Part shown: positions 3,501-10,318 of the stretch, piece by piece
Position numbering within the stretch: the first letter of the stretch is position 1
Layout of the letters: each line of letters opens with the position of its first letter
Notes under the pieces: generated by a model
What the model was told of the DNA's origin: nothing
The model's database searches: none
What the model saw: the letters and a program-made list of their open reading frames with translations, nothing else
Program-made: the position numbers and the translations under genes
NCBI GenBank assembly: GCA_015655545.1
Contig: JAATET010000037.1
Coordinates: 1-34,737, forward strand
Source: Chthoniobacterales bacterium
Lineage (GTDB): Bacteria > Verrucomicrobiota > Verrucomicrobiia > Chthoniobacterales > JAATET01
Reading direction: 5' to 3'
DNA: 34,737 nt

Positions 3501-3514
3501 GGTGAGGAGAGGTC

Positions 3515-3572
3515 TACAGGAGGCAACGGAGAAAACGGAGAGACATTTCCCGGTGACCTCCGTTATCTCATG
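3515..3572. repeat. Cargo-less relic of the GxxExxY-associated inverted repeat
   Basis: The left arm, 3515-3543, starts TACAGGAGGCAACGGAG; the right arm, 3557-3572, read on the minus strand is CATGAGATAACGGAGG. They pair imperfectly (about 12 of 15 core positions) across roughly 13 bases. The left arm matches the right arm of the element at 9033-9503 (GGAGGCAACGGAG), and the right arm matches that element's left arm (GAGATAACGGAGG). The copy is therefore inverted and has lost the gene. It fills the 69 bases between the gpgS and GT4 start codons, and its right end contains the GT4 ATG. Confidence 0.7.
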
Positions 3573-4883
3573 TTCGAAACCGTGCCTTCGCCCGTCACCA
3601 TTCCCTTCCGCCGCGTCGGCTTCGTCTCCACGCGTTTCGCGGGGACGGATGGCGTGAGCTTCGAGGCGGGCAAATGGACGCGGATCTTCGAGGCGGAGGG
3701 CGCGGCGTGTTTTTGGTTTGCGGGCCAGCTTGAGGCGCCGCCGGAGAGCAGCTACCTCGTGCCCGAGGCATTTTTCAATCACCCGGACGTGCTGGAGATT
3801 CAGGCCGGATTGTTCGGAACGACGGAGCGGACGCCGGAGATCGAGCGCCGTGTGGAATCGATGGCGGGGCGGCTGAAAGCGGCGTTGCGGGATTTTATCG
3901 AACGATTCGGAATCGATCTGCTCGTGGTGGAAAATGCGCTGGCGATCCCGATGCACATTCCATTCGGGCTGGCGCTCGCGGAAGTGATCGGGGAGACGAA
4001 AATTCCGACGATCGCGCATCATCACGATTTTGCCTGGGAGCGCGAGAGATTCACGGTGAACGATGCCGCGGATTATTTCGGCGCAGCCTTCCCGCCGAGG
4101 CTGTCGAACATCGTGCATGTCGTGATCAATTCGCTGCAGAAAGCCGCGCTCGCCGAGCGCTGCGGATTGGATGCGGTGGTGATTCCCAACGTGCTCGACT
4201 TCGACGTGCCGCCGCCGGAGCTGGATGCCTACGCGCGGAGCTTCCGGAGCGAAATCGGTGTGCCGCGAGACGCGACGCTCGTGCTGCAGCCGACGCGCAT
4301 CGTGGCGCGGAAGGGCATCGCGCACAGCGTGGAGCTCGTGCGGCGGCTGGCGGACCGGCGGGCCGTGCTCGTGCTGTCGCATCCGGCGGGCGATGAAGGA
4401 TGGGATTATCTCGCGGAGGTCGAAGGGCGCATCCTCGAAGCGGGAATTCCGGCCATTTTTCTCTCCGGCCGCGTCGGTCAAACACGAGGGACGACCGCGG
4501 ATGGCGGGAAGATCTACACGCTGGCCGACATTTACCCGCAGGCGGACCTGGTGACGTATCCGTCCTCGTGGGAGGGCTTCGGCAACGCGTTGCTCGAGGC
4601 CGTGTCTTTCGGCCGGCCCGTGCTGGTGAATGCGTATCCGGTCTATCGAAGCGACATCGCTCCGGCCGGGCTGAGAGTCGTGGAAATGGATGGCCGGGTG
4701 ACGGACGAAGTCGTCGCCGAAGTGCGCCGCGTGCTCGACGATCGTCAAATGCAAAGCGATTGGGCGCGTGAAAATTTCGCCATCGGGCGCCGGCATTTTT
4801 CCATGGCGCTCGCCCGGGAGCGGCTGCGGGGAATTTTGACCGGTTTGCGCCAGCCGCTTGCCAGTTCGCGGGCCGGCGGTTAG
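3570..4883 (+). CDS. GT4-family glycosyltransferase, possibly mannosylglucosylglycerate synthase type
   Basis: A 437-residue GT-B fold retaining glycosyltransferase. The N-terminal acceptor half starts VGFVSTRFAGTDGVS (about 16-30), with the glycine-rich loop that contacts sugar donor. The C-terminal half has LQPTRIVARKG (donor phosphate contact Arg/Lys) and SSWEGFGNALLEAVSFGRPV, which contains the EX7E pair Glu335 and Glu343. It is divergent from gpgS. In the known mannosylglucosylglycerate pathway a GT4 enzyme adds mannose to glucosyl(-3-phospho)glycerate, so that role is a reasonable inference from context; a trehalose- or LPS-type GT4 cannot be excluded. The ATG at 3570 lies in the arm of a repeat and has no Shine-Dalgarno; a GTG at 3582 is an alternative start. 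The first strongly conserved residues begin after both. Confidence 0.82.
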   Translation: MFETVPSPVTIPFRRVGFVSTRFAGTDGVSFEAGKWTRIFEAEGAACFWFAGQLEAPPESSYLVPEAFFNHPDVLEIQAGLFGTTERTPEIERRVESMAGRLKAALRDFIERFGIDLLVVENALAIPMHIPFGLALAEVIGETKIPTIAHHHDFAWERERFTVNDAADYFGAAFPPRLSNIVHVVINSLQKAALAERCGLDAVVIPNVLDFDVPPPELDAYARSFRSEIGVPRDATLVLQPTRIVARKGIAHSVELVRRLADRRAVLVLSHPAGDEGWDYLAEVEGRILEAGIPAIFLSGRVGQTRGTTADGGKIYTLADIYPQADLVTYPSSWEGFGNALLEAVSFGRPVLVNAYPVYRSDIAPAGLRVVEMDGRVTDEVVAEVRRVLDDRQMQSDWARENFAIGRRHFSMALARERLRGILTGLRQPLASSRAGG

Positions 4884-4899: not shown

Positions 4900-6909
4900 A
4901 TGTTGGAAATTGCCCGCCGTCTCGCCCTTGGTCTCGCGCTTATTCTCGGCGCGTCCGCCCTGCTGCTTTTTTCCGATCTCGGATCGCGTGTCGAGGCCTC
5001 GAAAGTCGCCCAGCGCGACCGCGCGGCTCGCGTCGCCCTGGCCCAGCCGGCCTCGCAAGGCGTGCTCGATGACGGCGTGCGCGGCATTGTCGATGCGCTG
5101 GCCGCGCGCGGCTACGTGGATGGCCAGACGCTCGCGCTGAAAAAATACAACGCGGAGGGCGACGCCGGTGTCTCCGCCGCGATCGCGAAGGAAATGGCCA
5201 ACGGCGACGCCGACCTGCTCGTCACCGTCAGCACGCTCTCGCTCCAATCGGTCGCGAACGCCAACCGCACGACCCGGAAGCCGCATGTCTTCGGCGTCGT
5301 GAGCGATCCCGCCGCCGCCGGCGTGGGCATTTCCCGCGACCAGCCGCTCGATCATCCGGCGTGGCTGGCGGGCTTCGGAACCATGCAGCCCGTCGAGGCG
5401 GCCTTCAAAATCGCCCGCGAAATGAAGCCCGATCTCAAGCGCGTCGGCGTGGTCTGGAATGCCGCCGAGGCGAACTCCGAAGCGCAAATCAAGATCGCCC
5501 GCCAGGTCTGCGCCGGCCTGGGCATCGAGCTCATGGAATCAACCATCGATTCCTCCTCCGGCGTCGGCGAGGCCGCGGGCGCGCTCATCGCGCGGGGCGT
5601 CGAAGCGATTTTCATGGCGGGCGACGTCATGGTGATGGTGGGCGCGGAGCCCTTGCTGGCGGCCGCGAAGAAGAGCGACATCGCGGTCTTCAGTGTCATT
5701 CCGCCGAACGCGCGGAAGGGGGCGCTGTTCGACATCGGCGCCGATTATTACCAGGTGGGCCGCCACGCCGGCGATCTCGCCGCCGATGTGCTCGACGGCC
5801 GCGATCCCGCGAAGGTGGAGATCGTCAATTACCTTCCCGAGTCCATTTTCATCAACGAGCAAACCCTCTCCGCGCTCGTGAAAAAAGGCTGGCGGCTGCC
5901 CGACTCGGTGCGCAGTCGCGCGAAGGTCATCATCAATTCCGCCGGCCAGGAAATCCCCGGCCCCGCCGCCAGCGTCGCCGCCGCGCCGCCGCCCGCCCGC
6001 AAGCGCGAGAAGCCGTGGAACCTTTACGCGATCATGTATACCGAGTCGCCGCCCGCCGAGGAAACGGTCGCCGGTTTGCACGAGGGCATGAAGAAGTGGC
6101 CGCTCGTCGAGGGGCGCGACTACACCTTCCATCTCCTCAACGCCCAGGGCGACATCGGCACGTTGAACAGCCTGATCGACGCCGCGCTCACCGACGGCGC
6201 GGACATCATCATCCCGATTTCCACGCCGTCGCTCCAGGCCGCGATCCGCAAGGTGAAGGACCGTCCCGTCGTCTTCTCGCTCATCGCGAATCCCATCGCC
6301 GCCGGCGCGGGAAAATCCTACGAGGATCACCTCCCGAATGTCACCGGCATCACCGTTCTCGCCCCCACCGACGACCTGCTCGACCTGCTTCGCAAGCACT
6401 TCCCGCAATACCGCCGCATCGGCACGCTCTATTGTCCCGCGGAAGCCAACTCCGTCGACTTGAAGGACACGCTCGTCTCGCATGGAAAAGCCCGCGGCTT
6501 CGAGGTCGAGACCGTCGCCGTGAGCACGCCGTCCGAGTTGCCCGATGCCGCGATGTCGCTCGCCGGCAAGCCGATCGACGCCATCGTCCAGATCTCCGAC
6601 AACCTCACCAGCGCCGGATTCACCGCCATCTCGCGCGCAGCGAATCAAGTGCGCAAGCCGCTCTTCTCGCTCAACAGCACGACGATCGGTCTCGGCGCGC
6701 CGATCTCGTTTGGTCGCGATTATCACGAGTGCGGCATCCAGACCGCGACCATGTTGCTGCGTGTCATGAATGGCGAATCTCCCGCGCGCATGCCGTTCCT
6801 GCTCTCCCCGCACGTCGTCAAAAAAGCGAGCCTTCCCAATGCCCGCGCGAACGGCCTGCTCATCCCGCAGGGCTATCTCGACGAGATGGAAACCGTCATC
6901 CCGCAATAA
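4900..6909 (+). CDS. ABC transporter substrate-binding protein, tandem-duplicated
   Basis: This 669-residue protein contains two complete ABC_sub_bind-type (TrpX-like, PF04392 style) periplasmic binding domains in one chain. Residues about 7-26 form a hydrophobic segment that anchors or exports it; no lipobox cysteine is visible. Domain 1 spans about 40-345 (LLVTVSTLSLQSVA, VGVVWNAAEANSEAQIK, GADYYQVGRHAGDLAADVL). An Ala/Pro linker lies at about 347-367. Domain 2 spans about 370-665 (IIIPISTPSLQAAI, IGTLYCPAEANSVDLKDT, FGRDYHECGIQTATMLL). The paired landmarks show an internal duplication, though the halves have diverged. Usual family length is about 320. ATG 4900 was chosen because upstream in-frame codons overlap the preceding gene's end. 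It heads the importer operon, two bases before the STAS gene. Amino-acid-like or purine-like ligands are typical; the substrate is unknown. Confidence 0.85.
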   Translation: MLEIARRLALGLALILGASALLLFSDLGSRVEASKVAQRDRAARVALAQPASQGVLDDGVRGIVDALAARGYVDGQTLALKKYNAEGDAGVSAAIAKEMANGDADLLVTVSTLSLQSVANANRTTRKPHVFGVVSDPAAAGVGISRDQPLDHPAWLAGFGTMQPVEAAFKIAREMKPDLKRVGVVWNAAEANSEAQIKIARQVCAGLGIELMESTIDSSSGVGEAAGALIARGVEAIFMAGDVMVMVGAEPLLAAAKKSDIAVFSVIPPNARKGALFDIGADYYQVGRHAGDLAADVLDGRDPAKVEIVNYLPESIFINEQTLSALVKKGWRLPDSVRSRAKVIINSAGQEIPGPAASVAAAPPPARKREKPWNLYAIMYTESPPAEETVAGLHEGMKKWPLVEGRDYTFHLLNAQGDIGTLNSLIDAALTDGADIIIPISTPSLQAAIRKVKDRPVVFSLIANPIAAGAGKSYEDHLPNVTGITVLAPTDDLLDLLRKHFPQYRRIGTLYCPAEANSVDLKDTLVSHGKARGFEVETVAVSTPSELPDAAMSLAGKPIDAIVQISDNLTSAGFTAISRAANQVRKPLFSLNSTTIGLGAPISFGRDYHECGIQTATMLLRVMNGESPARMPFLLSPHVVKKASLPNARANGLLIPQGYLDEMETVIPQ

Positions 6910-6911
6910 CG

Positions 6912-8111
6912 ATGGACATCCAGCGCACCCACGAAAACGGCGCCTTCCTCCTCACTCTCGCGGGGCGGCTCGACGCCACCTGGGCCGACGCCGTGCAGGC
7001 TGCGCTCGACGCCGCCGTGCGCGCCGGAGAGCACCGCATCGTGATGGATATGGCCGGCGTCGATTACATCAGCTCCGCCGGCCTCCGCGTCGTGATCGCC
7101 GGATACAAGCAACTCCGCGCCGTCCAGGGCGGCTTCGCCCTGCGCAACGTGCAGCCCGGCGTGGCGAAGGTCATCGAGCTTTCCGGCCTGGGTGTTTTGT
7201 TGAATGCGCCGGCTCCCGTCGTTGCGGAATCCCGGGCCGTCCGCCGCTCCGAAAGCGCGAGCGCGACCTGGGAAAGTCACGGCACGGTCACGCCTGTGAA
7301 ACTGCGGGCGATCGGCGGAGCCTCCGCCTTCGATGTCGCCGGCGGCGAGTCGGTCGAATTTTCGGCTGCGCGTTTTGGTCTCGGCATTGCCGCGCTGGCG
7401 GGAAGTCGTGAAGAAGCGCTTCCGCGGCTGGGAGAATTTTTAGCCCTCGCGGGTTGCGCCGCGCATTTGCCGGCCGGCGGGGCGAATCGTCCCGACTTCC
7501 TCGTTGCCGAAAAAGCCTTTGTTCCGTCCGCCTGGATTTCGAGCGGCCTGATCGCCGAAGGATCTCCCGGCCTTTTGCTGCGCTTCGAAGTGCGTCCGGA
7601 AAGCCGCGGCGTGCCGCTGGTGGAGATCGCCTCCGCAGCGCTCGAAGCCTCCGGCGCATCGGTCGCGATTTTTGTGACCGTGGCCGAGGTTGCCGGACTG
7701 GTCGGCGGGTCCTTGCGCCAGTCGCCCGCGGCGGCCAGCGGCGACCCGTTCGCCTTTCCCGGCATCCGCGAGCGCCTGAGCTTCACGAGCGAGCGCGCTT
7801 TCCGCGACACGACCTGCATCACGGTCGGCGTCGTGGCGAAATCTGGATCCGCCTGGGAAAAGCAGCTTCGTCCGCTGAGTGCGACTGGCGAGACTCTTGG
7901 GCACATTCACGCCGCGGTTTTTCCCTACCGTCCGATCCGCAAGGGCGAGATCGCCCTCGACGAAACCGTGCGCGGTCTTTTCGAGGTCGGCGGCTTGCAA
8001 TCCCTGCTTCATTTGCTCAACGACACGCGCGATCCGGAAGGCTCCGGCGACAGCGAATTCCATCGCGGCGCGTGCTGGGTCGCGCCCGTCTCGAACCCCA
8101 GCGAACCATGA
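6912..8111 (+). CDS. STAS-domain protein with unknown C-terminal domain
   Basis: This is a 399-residue cytoplasmic protein. Residues 1-105 form a STAS domain of the anti-sigma-factor-antagonist type: a GRLDATWADAVQ strand-helix start, VMDMAGVDYISSAGLRVVI (44-62) with Ser55 at the position phosphorylated in SpoIIAA, and FALRNVQPGVAKVIELSGL. Residues about 125-399 form a second domain I cannot assign; it includes FAFPGIRERLSFTSERAF, TTCITVGVVAKSG, LGHIHAAVFPYRPIRKGE and LQSLLHLLNDTRD. The gene begins two bases after the substrate-binding gene and its stop overlaps the permease start (ATGA at 8108-8111), so it is co-translated with the importer. STAS partners of ABC systems are known (MlaB), so a regulatory or structural role at the transporter is plausible; a partner-switching role is the alternative. 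Confidence 0.75.
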   Translation: MDIQRTHENGAFLLTLAGRLDATWADAVQAALDAAVRAGEHRIVMDMAGVDYISSAGLRVVIAGYKQLRAVQGGFALRNVQPGVAKVIELSGLGVLLNAPAPVVAESRAVRRSESASATWESHGTVTPVKLRAIGGASAFDVAGGESVEFSAARFGLGIAALAGSREEALPRLGEFLALAGCAAHLPAGGANRPDFLVAEKAFVPSAWISSGLIAEGSPGLLLRFEVRPESRGVPLVEIASAALEASGASVAIFVTVAEVAGLVGGSLRQSPAAASGDPFAFPGIRERLSFTSERAFRDTTCITVGVVAKSGSAWEKQLRPLSATGETLGHIHAAVFPYRPIRKGEIALDETVRGLFEVGGLQSLLHLLNDTRDPEGSGDSEFHRGACWVAPVSNPSEP

Positions 8112-9031
8112 CGCTTCTCCTCGGCGCCCTCACCATTGGCCTGATCCTCTCGCTGCTCGCGATGGGCGTGATGGTGTCGTTTCGTATTTTCTCCGTGCCC
8201 GACATCACGACCGACGGCTCGATCACGCTCGGCGCGGCGGTGGCCGCCACCTTGATCGTGATGGGGGTGCCGCCGTCGCTCGCCACGCTCGCGGCGCTGG
8301 TTGCCGGATTGCTCGCCGGAGCGACGACCGGCGTCATTCACACGAAATTCAAAATCGACGCGCTGCTCTCCGGCATCCTCGTGATGACCGCGCTCTATTC
8401 CGTGAACCTCCGCGTCATGGGCAAGAGCAACGTCCCGCTCATGAGTAACGCGACGCTCGCCAGCGAGGCTGGCGCGTTGGGCGAAAAAATTCTCGGCGCC
8501 ACTCGCGTGCATGTGTTCGGCTGGCCGGTTTCCGCGGCGGATCTCAGCGTGCTCTTCGGCGCGTTGATTTGCGCGATCATCGGCGCGCTGGTGGTTTATT
8601 TTTTCTTCCGCACGCAAATCGGCACCGCCATGCGCGCGACCGGCGACAACGCGCAAATGGTCCGCGCGCTCGGGGCGAACGTTGAAGTCTACCGCGTCTT
8701 CGGCCTTGCGATGGCGAACGGTCTCATCGCCCTCTCGGGCGCGCTGCTGGCGCAGTTCCAGGGTTTCGCCGACGCGCAAATGGGCATCGGCATGGTCGTG
8801 ACCGGCCTTGCCAGCGTGATCATCGGCGAGTCGCTCACCGGGGGAAATCGCAGCCTTGGCCTCACCTTGATCGGCGCGATTTTCGGGTCAGTGCTTTTCC
8901 GCCTGCTTGTGGCGATCGCCTTGCGATGGGGGCTCAATCCAAACGACCTCAAGCTCATCACCGCCATCTTCGTGCTGGCCGCCTTGGTCCTGCCCGGCCT
9001 GCTCGGCAAACTCCGGAGGAAAACGGCATGA
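8108..9031 (+). CDS. ABC transporter permease (branched-chain-type fold)
   Basis: A 307-residue integral membrane protein with about eight hydrophobic segments, in the family of permeases that pair with ABC_sub_bind receptors (distant LivH/YufPQ type). It shows SVPDITTDGSITLGAAVAA near the N-terminus, AMRATGDNAQMVRALGANVE, which is the cytoplasmic EAA-like loop contacting the ATPase, and GLASVIIGESLTGGNRSLG later. The start ATG 8108 overlaps the preceding stop by four bases. The gene ends at 9031 and the inverted-repeat arm begins two bases later, separating it from its ATPase at 9506. It should form the transmembrane channel of the importer. Confidence 0.9.
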   Translation: MTLLLGALTIGLILSLLAMGVMVSFRIFSVPDITTDGSITLGAAVAATLIVMGVPPSLATLAALVAGLLAGATTGVIHTKFKIDALLSGILVMTALYSVNLRVMGKSNVPLMSNATLASEAGALGEKILGATRVHVFGWPVSAADLSVLFGALICAIIGALVVYFFFRTQIGTAMRATGDNAQMVRALGANVEVYRVFGLAMANGLIALSGALLAQFQGFADAQMGIGMVVTGLASVIIGESLTGGNRSLGLTLIGAIFGSVLFRLLVAIALRWGLNPNDLKLITAIFVLAALVLPGLLGKLRRKTA

Positions 9032-9032
9032 T

Positions 9033-9062
9033 TTTTACAGGAGATAACGGAGGAAAGGGAGG
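9033..9062 (+). repeat. Left terminal inverted repeat
   Basis: The arm begins TTTTACAGGAG and continues ATAACGGAGGAAAGGGAGG. Its inner end contains GGAGGG about 5 bases before the ATG at 9069, so the repeat itself supplies the Shine-Dalgarno sequence of the cargo gene. Confidence 0.75.
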
Positions 9063-9068
9063 GACGGT

Positions 9069-9470
9069 ATGCACCCGCTTTTCTTGAAGGCGAATTCCAT
9101 GACGGAAGACATCATTGGCGCCACGATCGAGGTTCATCGCTTGAAGGGGCCGGGCTTGATCGAGTCGATTTACGAAAAATTCCTCCGCCGCGAACTCGAA
9201 CTTCGCAACCGCGCCGTCCTCAGCCAGCGAGCGGTGAAGATCGAATACAAAGGTTTCGAGTTTGAAGAGGCACTGAGATTCGATCTCCTGGTTGAGGGAT
9301 GCGTATTGCTGGAGTTGAAGTCTGTCGAGGTTGTGCTGCCCATCCACAAAGCTCAACTTTTTAGCTACATGAAGCTGCTCGACGTGCCGATCGGATTGTT
9401 GATCAATTTCCGATCAACGAAACTCGTCGAAGGCGTTCACCGCATGATTCTACCGGGAGCGAATGAATGA
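9069..9470 (+). CDS. GxxExxY family protein
   Basis: A 133-residue member of the GxxExxY family (PDDEXK_3-type, PF13366 style), whose signature is seen as GPGLIESIYEKFL: Gly, then Glu three residues on, then Tyr. Further landmarks are VKIEYKGFEF, FDLLVEGCVLLELKSVE (Asp...Glu-x-Lys, resembling a PD-(D/E)xK nuclease core), and HKAQLFSYMKLLDVPIGLLINF. Family function is not established; the nuclease-like core makes a DNA-processing role conceivable. ATG 9069 has a strong Shine-Dalgarno provided by the left repeat arm; ATG 9099 is an alternative that also starts near the conserved domain. The stop overlaps an ATG (9467-9470) in frame with the downstream ATPase. It has no obvious link to transport and is best read as cargo. 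Confidence 0.88.
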   Translation: MHPLFLKANSMTEDIIGATIEVHRLKGPGLIESIYEKFLRRELELRNRAVLSQRAVKIEYKGFEFEEALRFDLLVEGCVLLELKSVEVVLPIHKAQLFSYMKLLDVPIGLLINFRSTKLVEGVHRMILPGANE

Positions 9471-9473
9471 CCC

Positions 9474-9503
9474 CCTCTGTTTCCTCCGTTGCCTCCTGTA
9501 AAA
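9474..9503 (-). repeat. Right terminal inverted repeat
   Basis: Read on the minus strand it is TTTTACAGGAGGCAACGGAG followed by GAAACAGAGG. It ends two bases before the native ATG (9506) of the ABC ATPase. On the plus strand it stays open in the ATPase frame, encoding a short PSVSSVASCKT-like extension if translation starts at 9467. Confidence 0.75.
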
Positions 9504-9505
9504 CA

Positions 9506-10318
9506 ATGCTTTCCCTCACTGGTCTCCGCCGCACGTTCAACGCCGGAACGGTCAACGAAGTCCGCGCCCTGCAAGGTATCGACCTCGAGGTCGAGGAAGG
9601 CTCCTTCGTCCAGCTTCTCGGCATGAACGGCTCCGGAAAGTCCACGCTGCTCAATGCCGTCGCGGGTTCCTTCTATCTGGATTCCGGCACGATCAAACTC
9701 GACGGCGTGAATCTTACCCGCTGGACGGAGCATCGCCGCGCCGCCCTCGTCGGTCGCGTATTCCAAAATCCCTTCAGCGGCACCGCGCCGAATCTCTCCA
9801 TCGCCGAAAACTTCGCGCTCGCGTCCCGCCGTGGGCTTGGCCGGGGCCTCGGCTGGGCGCTCAATCGCAAGCTCATGGACGATCTCCGCGCCCGGGTCGC
9901 CTCGCTGCGCATGGGCCTCGAAGACCGCCTCGACAACGCCATCGGCTCGCTCTCCGGCGGCCAGCGGCAGGCGCTCACGCTGCTCATGGCGACATGGCTG
10001 CGGCCCAAATTGCTCCTGCTCGACGAGCACACGGCCGCGCTCGATCCGAAAAGCGCGGACCAGGTGATCCAGCTCACCGAGGAGATCATTCGCCGCGAAA
10101 AGCTGACGACGCTCATGGTCACGCACTCGATGCAGCAGGCCGTGAATCTCGGCGGCCGCATCGTGATGCTGCACAAGGGCGAGGTCGCCCACGACCTGCG
10201 CGGCGCGGAGAAACGCCGCCTGCGTCCCGAGGACCTCGTAGACCGCTTCCACGAAATCCGCGCCCGCGAATTGCTCGACGAGCGCGCCGCCGAGCTGCTG
10301 CGCGCGAGCTACGTCTAA
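9506..10318 (+). CDS. ABC transporter ATP-binding protein
   Basis: A 270-residue ABC ATPase energising the importer. It shows Walker A GMNGSGKST, a Q-loop in GRVFQNPFSG, the signature LSGGQRQAL, Walker B LLLLDEH followed by the D-loop TAALDPKSA, and the switch His in MVTHSMQQA. MLSLTGLRRTFN at ATG 9506 is the normal family N-terminus, so I chose that start. A second in-frame ATG at 9467 overlaps the GxxExxY stop and would add 13 residues encoded by the repeat arm; this may be used through translational coupling. The conserved Glu after Walker B Asp is present (DEH). The gene lies downstream of the permease but is separated from it by the inserted element. Confidence 0.93.
   Translation: MLSLTGLRRTFNAGTVNEVRALQGIDLEVEEGSFVQLLGMNGSGKSTLLNAVAGSFYLDSGTIKLDGVNLTRWTEHRRAALVGRVFQNPFSGTAPNLSIAENFALASRRGLGRGLGWALNRKLMDDLRARVASLRMGLEDRLDNAIGSLSGGQRQALTLLMATWLRPKLLLLDEHTAALDPKSADQVIQLTEEIIRREKLTTLMVTHSMQQAVNLGGRIVMLHKGEVAHDLRGAEKRRLRPEDLVDRFHEIRARELLDERAAELLRASYV

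Follow-up and report, generated by a model that had tools for sequence, protein, structure and literature searches.

A GxxExxY gene between lineage-specific inverted arms: a candidate REPIN/RAYT-like system built on a predicted PD-(D/E)xK nuclease

The closest described counterpart of the locus analysed here is the REPIN/RAYT system (PMC3116915). Its main features recur in the GxxExxY genes and repeats presented below: the repeat flanks a single dedicated enzyme gene, inverted doublets lacking the gene occur by the dozen in extragenic space, and the repeat type is specific to the enzyme lineage, with several types per genome and old, slowly evolving populations. The two differ in the enzyme, an HUH tyrosine transposase in the case of RAYT and a predicted PD-(D/E)xK nuclease in the case of GxxExxY, and in the repeat, one REP on one side and an arm of about three tandem cores with 8-11-nt spacing on the other. 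Moreover, compensatory changes are common in REPIN hairpins (PMC3116915), whereas the spacers of paired GxxExxY arms do not covary. IS and MITE elements offer a second parallel, with one gene between inverted repeats, shorter gene-less derivatives and clean empty sites. Unlike them, the GxxExxY unit has no recognisable transposase and no detected target-site duplication, and its gene-less copies are independent in sequence outside the cores rather than deletion derivatives of the gene copy. A third comparison is with the Rpn/YhgA-like proteins (PF04754), which are reported to promote RecA-independent transfer (PMC5350276) and, as toxin-antitoxins, to act in phage defence (PMC10327210). Like the predicted GxxExxY nucleases, they are PD-(D/E)xK enzymes linked to DNA mobilisation; however, the gene studied here matches PF13366 only, and the abstract of PMC5350276 states no flanking-repeat rule for Rpn. 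Overall, the GxxExxY system is a variant of the enzyme-plus-palindrome kind, which by its enzyme and repeat architecture is neither REPIN/RAYT nor any of the IS families compared. The texts that we found naming GxxExxY state neither a function nor an association with repeats, and a search of openly accessible journal papers returned none that contains any of six representative arm sequences.

The window, by which we mean the whole 34,737-nt stretch analysed, is contig C103 of assembly G000 (3.0 Mb, 134 contigs), a MAG that is 84% complete and whose incompleteness may hide genes or copies. The unit itself is compact. Its left arm (9033..9063, plus strand) reads TTTT-ACAGGAG-AT-AACGGAG-GA-AAGGGAG and consists of three inward-pointing tandem cores at 9-nt spacing; the same arm occupies the same junction in the sister species G001. 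The gene (9069..9470, plus strand) encodes the 133-residue GxxExxY protein P0001, a clear member of TIGR04256/PF13366 (PDDEXK_3), and was characterised by both profiles, alignment, AlphaFold2, Foldseek and dN/dS. The inverted right arm (9473..9503, minus strand) reads TTTT-ACAGGAG-GC-AACGGAG-GA-AACAGAG on its own strand. The two 31-nt arms are 87% complementary, lie 409 nt apart and enclose exactly one ORF, as the sequence-only reading had proposed; that this ORF is GxxExxY also bears out its description of a unit devoid of a transposase. Allowing up to 3 mismatches, the arm pattern occurs 3 times in the window, whereas shuffled sequence predicts 0 occurrences. Chance pairing was rejected for this arm pair, which scores 42 against a shuffle maximum of 28. 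Upstream of the insertion lies an ABC permease gene (BPD_transp_2; 8108..9031, plus strand), whose stop is separated from the left arm by 1 nt; downstream, 2 nt separate the right arm from the ATG of an ABC ATPase gene (9506..10318, plus strand), for which the listed ORF start, 9467, falls inside the element. Further upstream, a gene for a 916-residue protein (5361-8111) overlaps the permease gene by 4 nt, in agreement with the earlier view that a repeat-bounded gene splits permease from ATPase in a tight operon.

Comparison of orthologous operons shows that the window unit is a discrete inserted element. We located the permease gene in six further genomes of the order. Five of these (G033, G048, G027, G025 and G035) have an empty junction, with a permease-ATPase gap of about 10-30 nt and no arms, and the sixth, G001, has the same unit there, with a protein 85% identical to that of the window; none has the gene without arms. 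The proposal of a discrete, possibly mobile or domesticated unit is thus borne out as far as insertion is concerned. Between G000 and G001 the gene shows dN of 0.079 and dS of 1.23 (dN/dS 0.064), indicating strong purifying selection. The window copy is therefore old and functional rather than freshly inserted. Since its place has been kept in two species about 1.2 synonymous substitutions per site apart, it may even be immobile.

Arms of this kind are not peculiar to the window. GxxExxY genes are present in 42 of the 57 genomes of the order, and we counted a gene as bracketed if an inverted repeat flanking it within 300 bp scored above the shuffle maximum of 28. This holds for 78 of 90 testable GxxExxY genes of the order, whereas among 221 ordinary genes of these genomes only 4 qualify. 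A wider scan, using one genome per prokaryotic species, returned more than 592 pattern matches; among the 79 loci with enough flanking sequence, 65 are bracketed by the same measure, and the phyla include Verrucomicrobiota, Planctomycetota, Bacteroidota, Pseudomonadota, Chloroflexota, Acidobacteriota, Cyanobacteria and others. All five relatives on viral contigs also have arms, so the bracketing rule may extend to viruses. Arm bracketing is a rule of the whole family that crosses phyla, each lineage having its own arms, and it has apparently not been described. Three of the viral genes, on IMG/VR contigs (L309, L311 and L312), are bordered by long inverted arms containing tandem units of the TTAAAATT type. 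Plasmid or phage cargo was rejected as the nature of the unit: there was no phage match, and 6 plasmid records and 5 viral contigs stand against the more than 592 matches on genome contigs. One GxxExxY gene in G000 (L063, C52:6107-6447) is broken by a stop and a frame change and retains both arms. Among the control regions, L142:15661-16123 is the only one with strong flanking arms, which are of CTCTGTG type and outward-facing.

Arm sequences vary greatly, within a common layout of usually three purine-rich tandem cores spaced by 8-11 nt. In 65 of 73 arms, self-matching is strongest at a lag of 8-10 nt, and the gene plus its arms has a median span of 485 nt. Examples range from ACAGGAG.AACGGAG.AACGGAG through CCGCAGATT.CGCAGATT.CGCAGATT, CACCAAG.CACCAAG.CACCAAG and ACAGGATTTACAGGATTAACAGGAT to ACCATTAAG.ATTAAG.ATTAAG in Flavobacterium. 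This variation follows the protein. Arm similarity drops as protein distance grows (79 genes; Mantel r=-0.45, 0/2000 permutations), and the correlation persists among pairs separated by more than 1.0 substitution (r=-0.30, 0/2000 permutations). An arm is more similar to that of its closest protein relative in a different genome (0.49) than to the arms of other GxxExxY genes in its own genome (0.28; random pairs 0.25; p=5e-7). Thus, the arm belongs to the protein lineage and not to the host, and the co-diversification of the two is established; indeed, single genomes may hold several arm types, each beside its own GxxExxY protein. Such a tie between a protein and its own arm fits the idea, put forward in the sequence-only reading, that the GxxExxY protein itself may process the repeat. 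Origin of the arms from a general host repeat was rejected, as arms from the same genome are no more alike than random pairs (p=0.30). Several copies of the window subfamily (L158, L165, L173 and L174/L253) have outward-pointing arms with their A/T ends toward the gene.

Arm pairs also occur on their own. Pattern scans, on which all solo counts rest, detected about 22 gene-less palindromes of the window arm type at intergenic sites of G000. One of them lies in the window at 3516..3573 (about 3512-3575; no strand). The sequence-only reading had taken it for a second relic copy; it is a solo palindrome of two arms containing no gene relic, and the orthologous intergenic site in G001 lacks it. 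The arms do recur throughout the genome, yet they associate with GxxExxY, contrary to the independent scatter that had been considered beforehand. For three arm patterns across the 57 genomes, we compared genomes that have a gene with matching arms with those that do not. ACAGGAG sites number 39 and 4 in genomes with a matching gene and zero in 50 of the 55 others (p=2e-5); ACAGGATT sites number 27, 12, 10 and 39, with zero in 40 of 53 others (p=4e-5); GCAGATT sites number 10, 38 and 46, with zero in 38 of 54 others (p=6e-4). Patterns read backward, used as controls, had almost no matches. In G022 there are 161 GCAGATT sites, and a GxxExxY gene of this genome has a GCAGATT-type palindrome at its 3′ end. 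The correspondence holds even within one protein subfamily: genomes with ACAGGAG-arm genes have ACAGGAG solos in 7 of 7 cases (the second pattern being uncounted in G001), and those with ACAGAAG-arm genes have mainly ACAGAAG solos in 7 of 9 (p=0.003 for one type against the other). Together these counts establish the association of solos with the gene. There are exceptions. G001 has the gene, yet only one solo; G072 (97 arms) and G059 (26) have ACAGGAG solos and gene arms of the ACAGAAG type; and G029 and G032 (15 arms each) have ACAGGATT solos with no matching gene detected. Orphan solos could reflect lost genes, assembly gaps or cross-activity.

Several solos are insertions. The G000 solo flanked by what we take, from reading the sequence, to be rplL and rplJ is missing from G001, G002 and G003, and the one at the L029 junction is missing from G002 and G003, where the junction measures 10 and 18 bp instead of 78. 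No target-site duplication above chance was found in 20 aged copies. Spacers and loops differ widely among solos, so there is no visible recent burst from a single master copy. These populations invite another explanation, namely that an unrelated transposase acts in trans on MITE-like elements, of which the arms are the terminal repeats and GxxExxY a passenger. Terminal inverted repeats and many gene-less copies are typical of MITEs, and orphan solo populations lacking a GxxExxY gene would be natural for such elements. However, a passenger would not be expected to have arms that track its own protein tree rather than the host, with several types per genome each beside its own protein. In G000, moreover, no gene other than GxxExxY was found between type-A arms. 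That no target-site duplication was detected in the aged copies and that the bracketing rule spans phyla speak against this explanation as well, which we regard as improbable.

Cores and spacers of the arms evolve differently. Across 20 solos and the gene copy, the cores hardly vary (conservation of 85-100% in most columns), whereas the two-base spacers are variable. If stem pairing were maintained, spacers would agree within a palindrome, but agreement is 32.5% within and 41.6% between palindromes (permutation p=0.97 for an excess). The orthologous gene insertions of G000 and G001 show the same pattern, with 2 differences over 42 core sites against 5 over 8 spacer sites (p=5e-4). Conserved cores next to drifting, non-covarying spacers make the constraint look like site recognition of each core rather than stem pairing. 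An RNA or terminator element was rejected separately: there was no Rfam match, the T-runs lie outside the arms, on the wrong side for a terminator, and the arms do not covary. Recognition of single cores, maintained even at a fixed orthologous insertion, would also suit arms that are operators. In that case GxxExxY would be a domesticated DNA-binding protein or nuclease that regulates itself and a dispersed regulon through them, the palindromes being kept for host function and mobility being incidental or past. Arms often lie no more than about 50 nt from the gene start or overlap it, the solos are located at gene junctions, and the gene is under strong purifying selection at a fixed site. On the other hand, autoregulation needs no inverted right arm behind the gene, and the catalytic motifs are retained across the family. 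A conserved regulon would also predict solos at orthologous sites of the sister species, but these sites lack them although G001 has the gene. We therefore consider the operator explanation unlikely, if less so than MITE-like passengers.

P0001 matches TIGR04256 with E=6e-36 (123.3 bits, cut-off 35) and PF13366 with E=3e-34 (118.2 bits, cut-off 22); the Pfam scan returned PF13366 alone, hence no match to an HUH (Y1) transposase. G29, E32, Y35, K84 and N113 are invariant in the family alignment, and D72, E82 and Q96 nearly so. A D, an ExK motif and a QxxxY motif are the residues expected of RecB/Cas4-type nucleases; D72, E82xK84 and Q96xxxY100 are all present in P0001, and the catalytic motifs are kept family-wide. 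The AlphaFold2 model (pLDDT 93.6) has as its best Foldseek neighbour the Cas4 protein SSO0001 (4ic1; probability 1.0, E 4e-4), followed by Cas4-like ACE1 and lambda exonuclease, with moderate TM-scores of 0.4-0.6; a sequence search of solved structures with GxxExxY found nothing. On this modelling, P0001 has a PD-(D/E)xK fold of the RecB/Cas4/lambda-exonuclease type and is a predicted nuclease. One member, L099 (G017:C66:32508-33269), is a single-frame fusion of two GxxExxY domains, of which the second has no ExK motif. The Cas4-like fold, with a weak PADLOC match to Cas4 (E=0.017), might also suggest a nuclease of defence or genome surveillance for which the palindromes are marks, used for example in self-recognition or in processing of replication-fork hairpins, with no role in transposition; other PD-(D/E)xK proteins, those of the Rpn family, are reported to act in transfer (PMC5350276) and phage defence (PMC10327210). 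Yet the unit is a single gene between arms with no partner gene, the arms show no hairpin covariation, and copies have been gained at new sites between sister species, which makes such a role very improbable.

Given the arms, the solos and the predicted fold, the GxxExxY unit is probably a REPIN/RAYT-like mobile system of nuclease plus repeat, built on a PD-(D/E)xK enzyme. We infer the steps themselves, namely binding, cutting and mobilisation by the protein, copying and the route of insertion, as follows. Positions 9033-9503 would be one full-length copy of the system. The stand-alone RecB/Cas4-type nuclease would recognise its lineage-specific arm, usually through triple cores about one DNA turn apart, and act on inverted pairs of arms that enclose either its own gene or a short loop, in a manner resembling the proposed action of RAYTs on REP doublets. 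Solo palindromes, which have the short loop, would be non-autonomous elements. The paired arms might be cut within or next to their sequence, after which the replication or repair machinery of the host would finish the copy, with new copies landing at A/T-rich intergenic sites. Considering the age of the window copy, many such units may now be domesticated. More tentatively, GxxExxY elements might constitute a phylum-spanning class of mobile DNA, in which a stand-alone PD-(D/E)xK mobilising enzyme goes with a lineage-specific triplet-core code in two inverted arms, protein and cores co-diversifying. Its footprints would be many of the dispersed repeats of environmental bacteria, such as the CACAGAG, CGCAGATT, CACGAAG and ATTAAG triplets, and their counterparts at viral GxxExxY genes. 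Such a reading assigns a testable function to a widespread family of enzymes for which texts give a name and no role, and it offers a common origin for many dispersed palindromic repeats usually left unexplained. As protein and site have co-diversified in many lineages, the family provides extensive natural data from which to read a protein-DNA recognition code, and it might yield a compact site-specific nuclease. If mobility is real, it would also be a REPIN-like system with unrelated enzyme chemistry.

Some palindromes are arranged in more complex ways. At two places in G000 (L011, C1:6750-6875, and L023/L250, C119:41979-42127), palindromes are nested, one of a different type (ACGGAAGG/AACAAAGG or ACAGAAGG/ATGCGAAGG) lying in a type-A loop. 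A junction occupied by a solo in G000 holds about 990 bp of other sequence in G001 (L302, C83:9730-10719). Finally, palindromes or arms form tandem arrays of fixed period in G071 (C180:8-1194, about 163 bp) and G002 (C48:5507-6098, about 192 bp).
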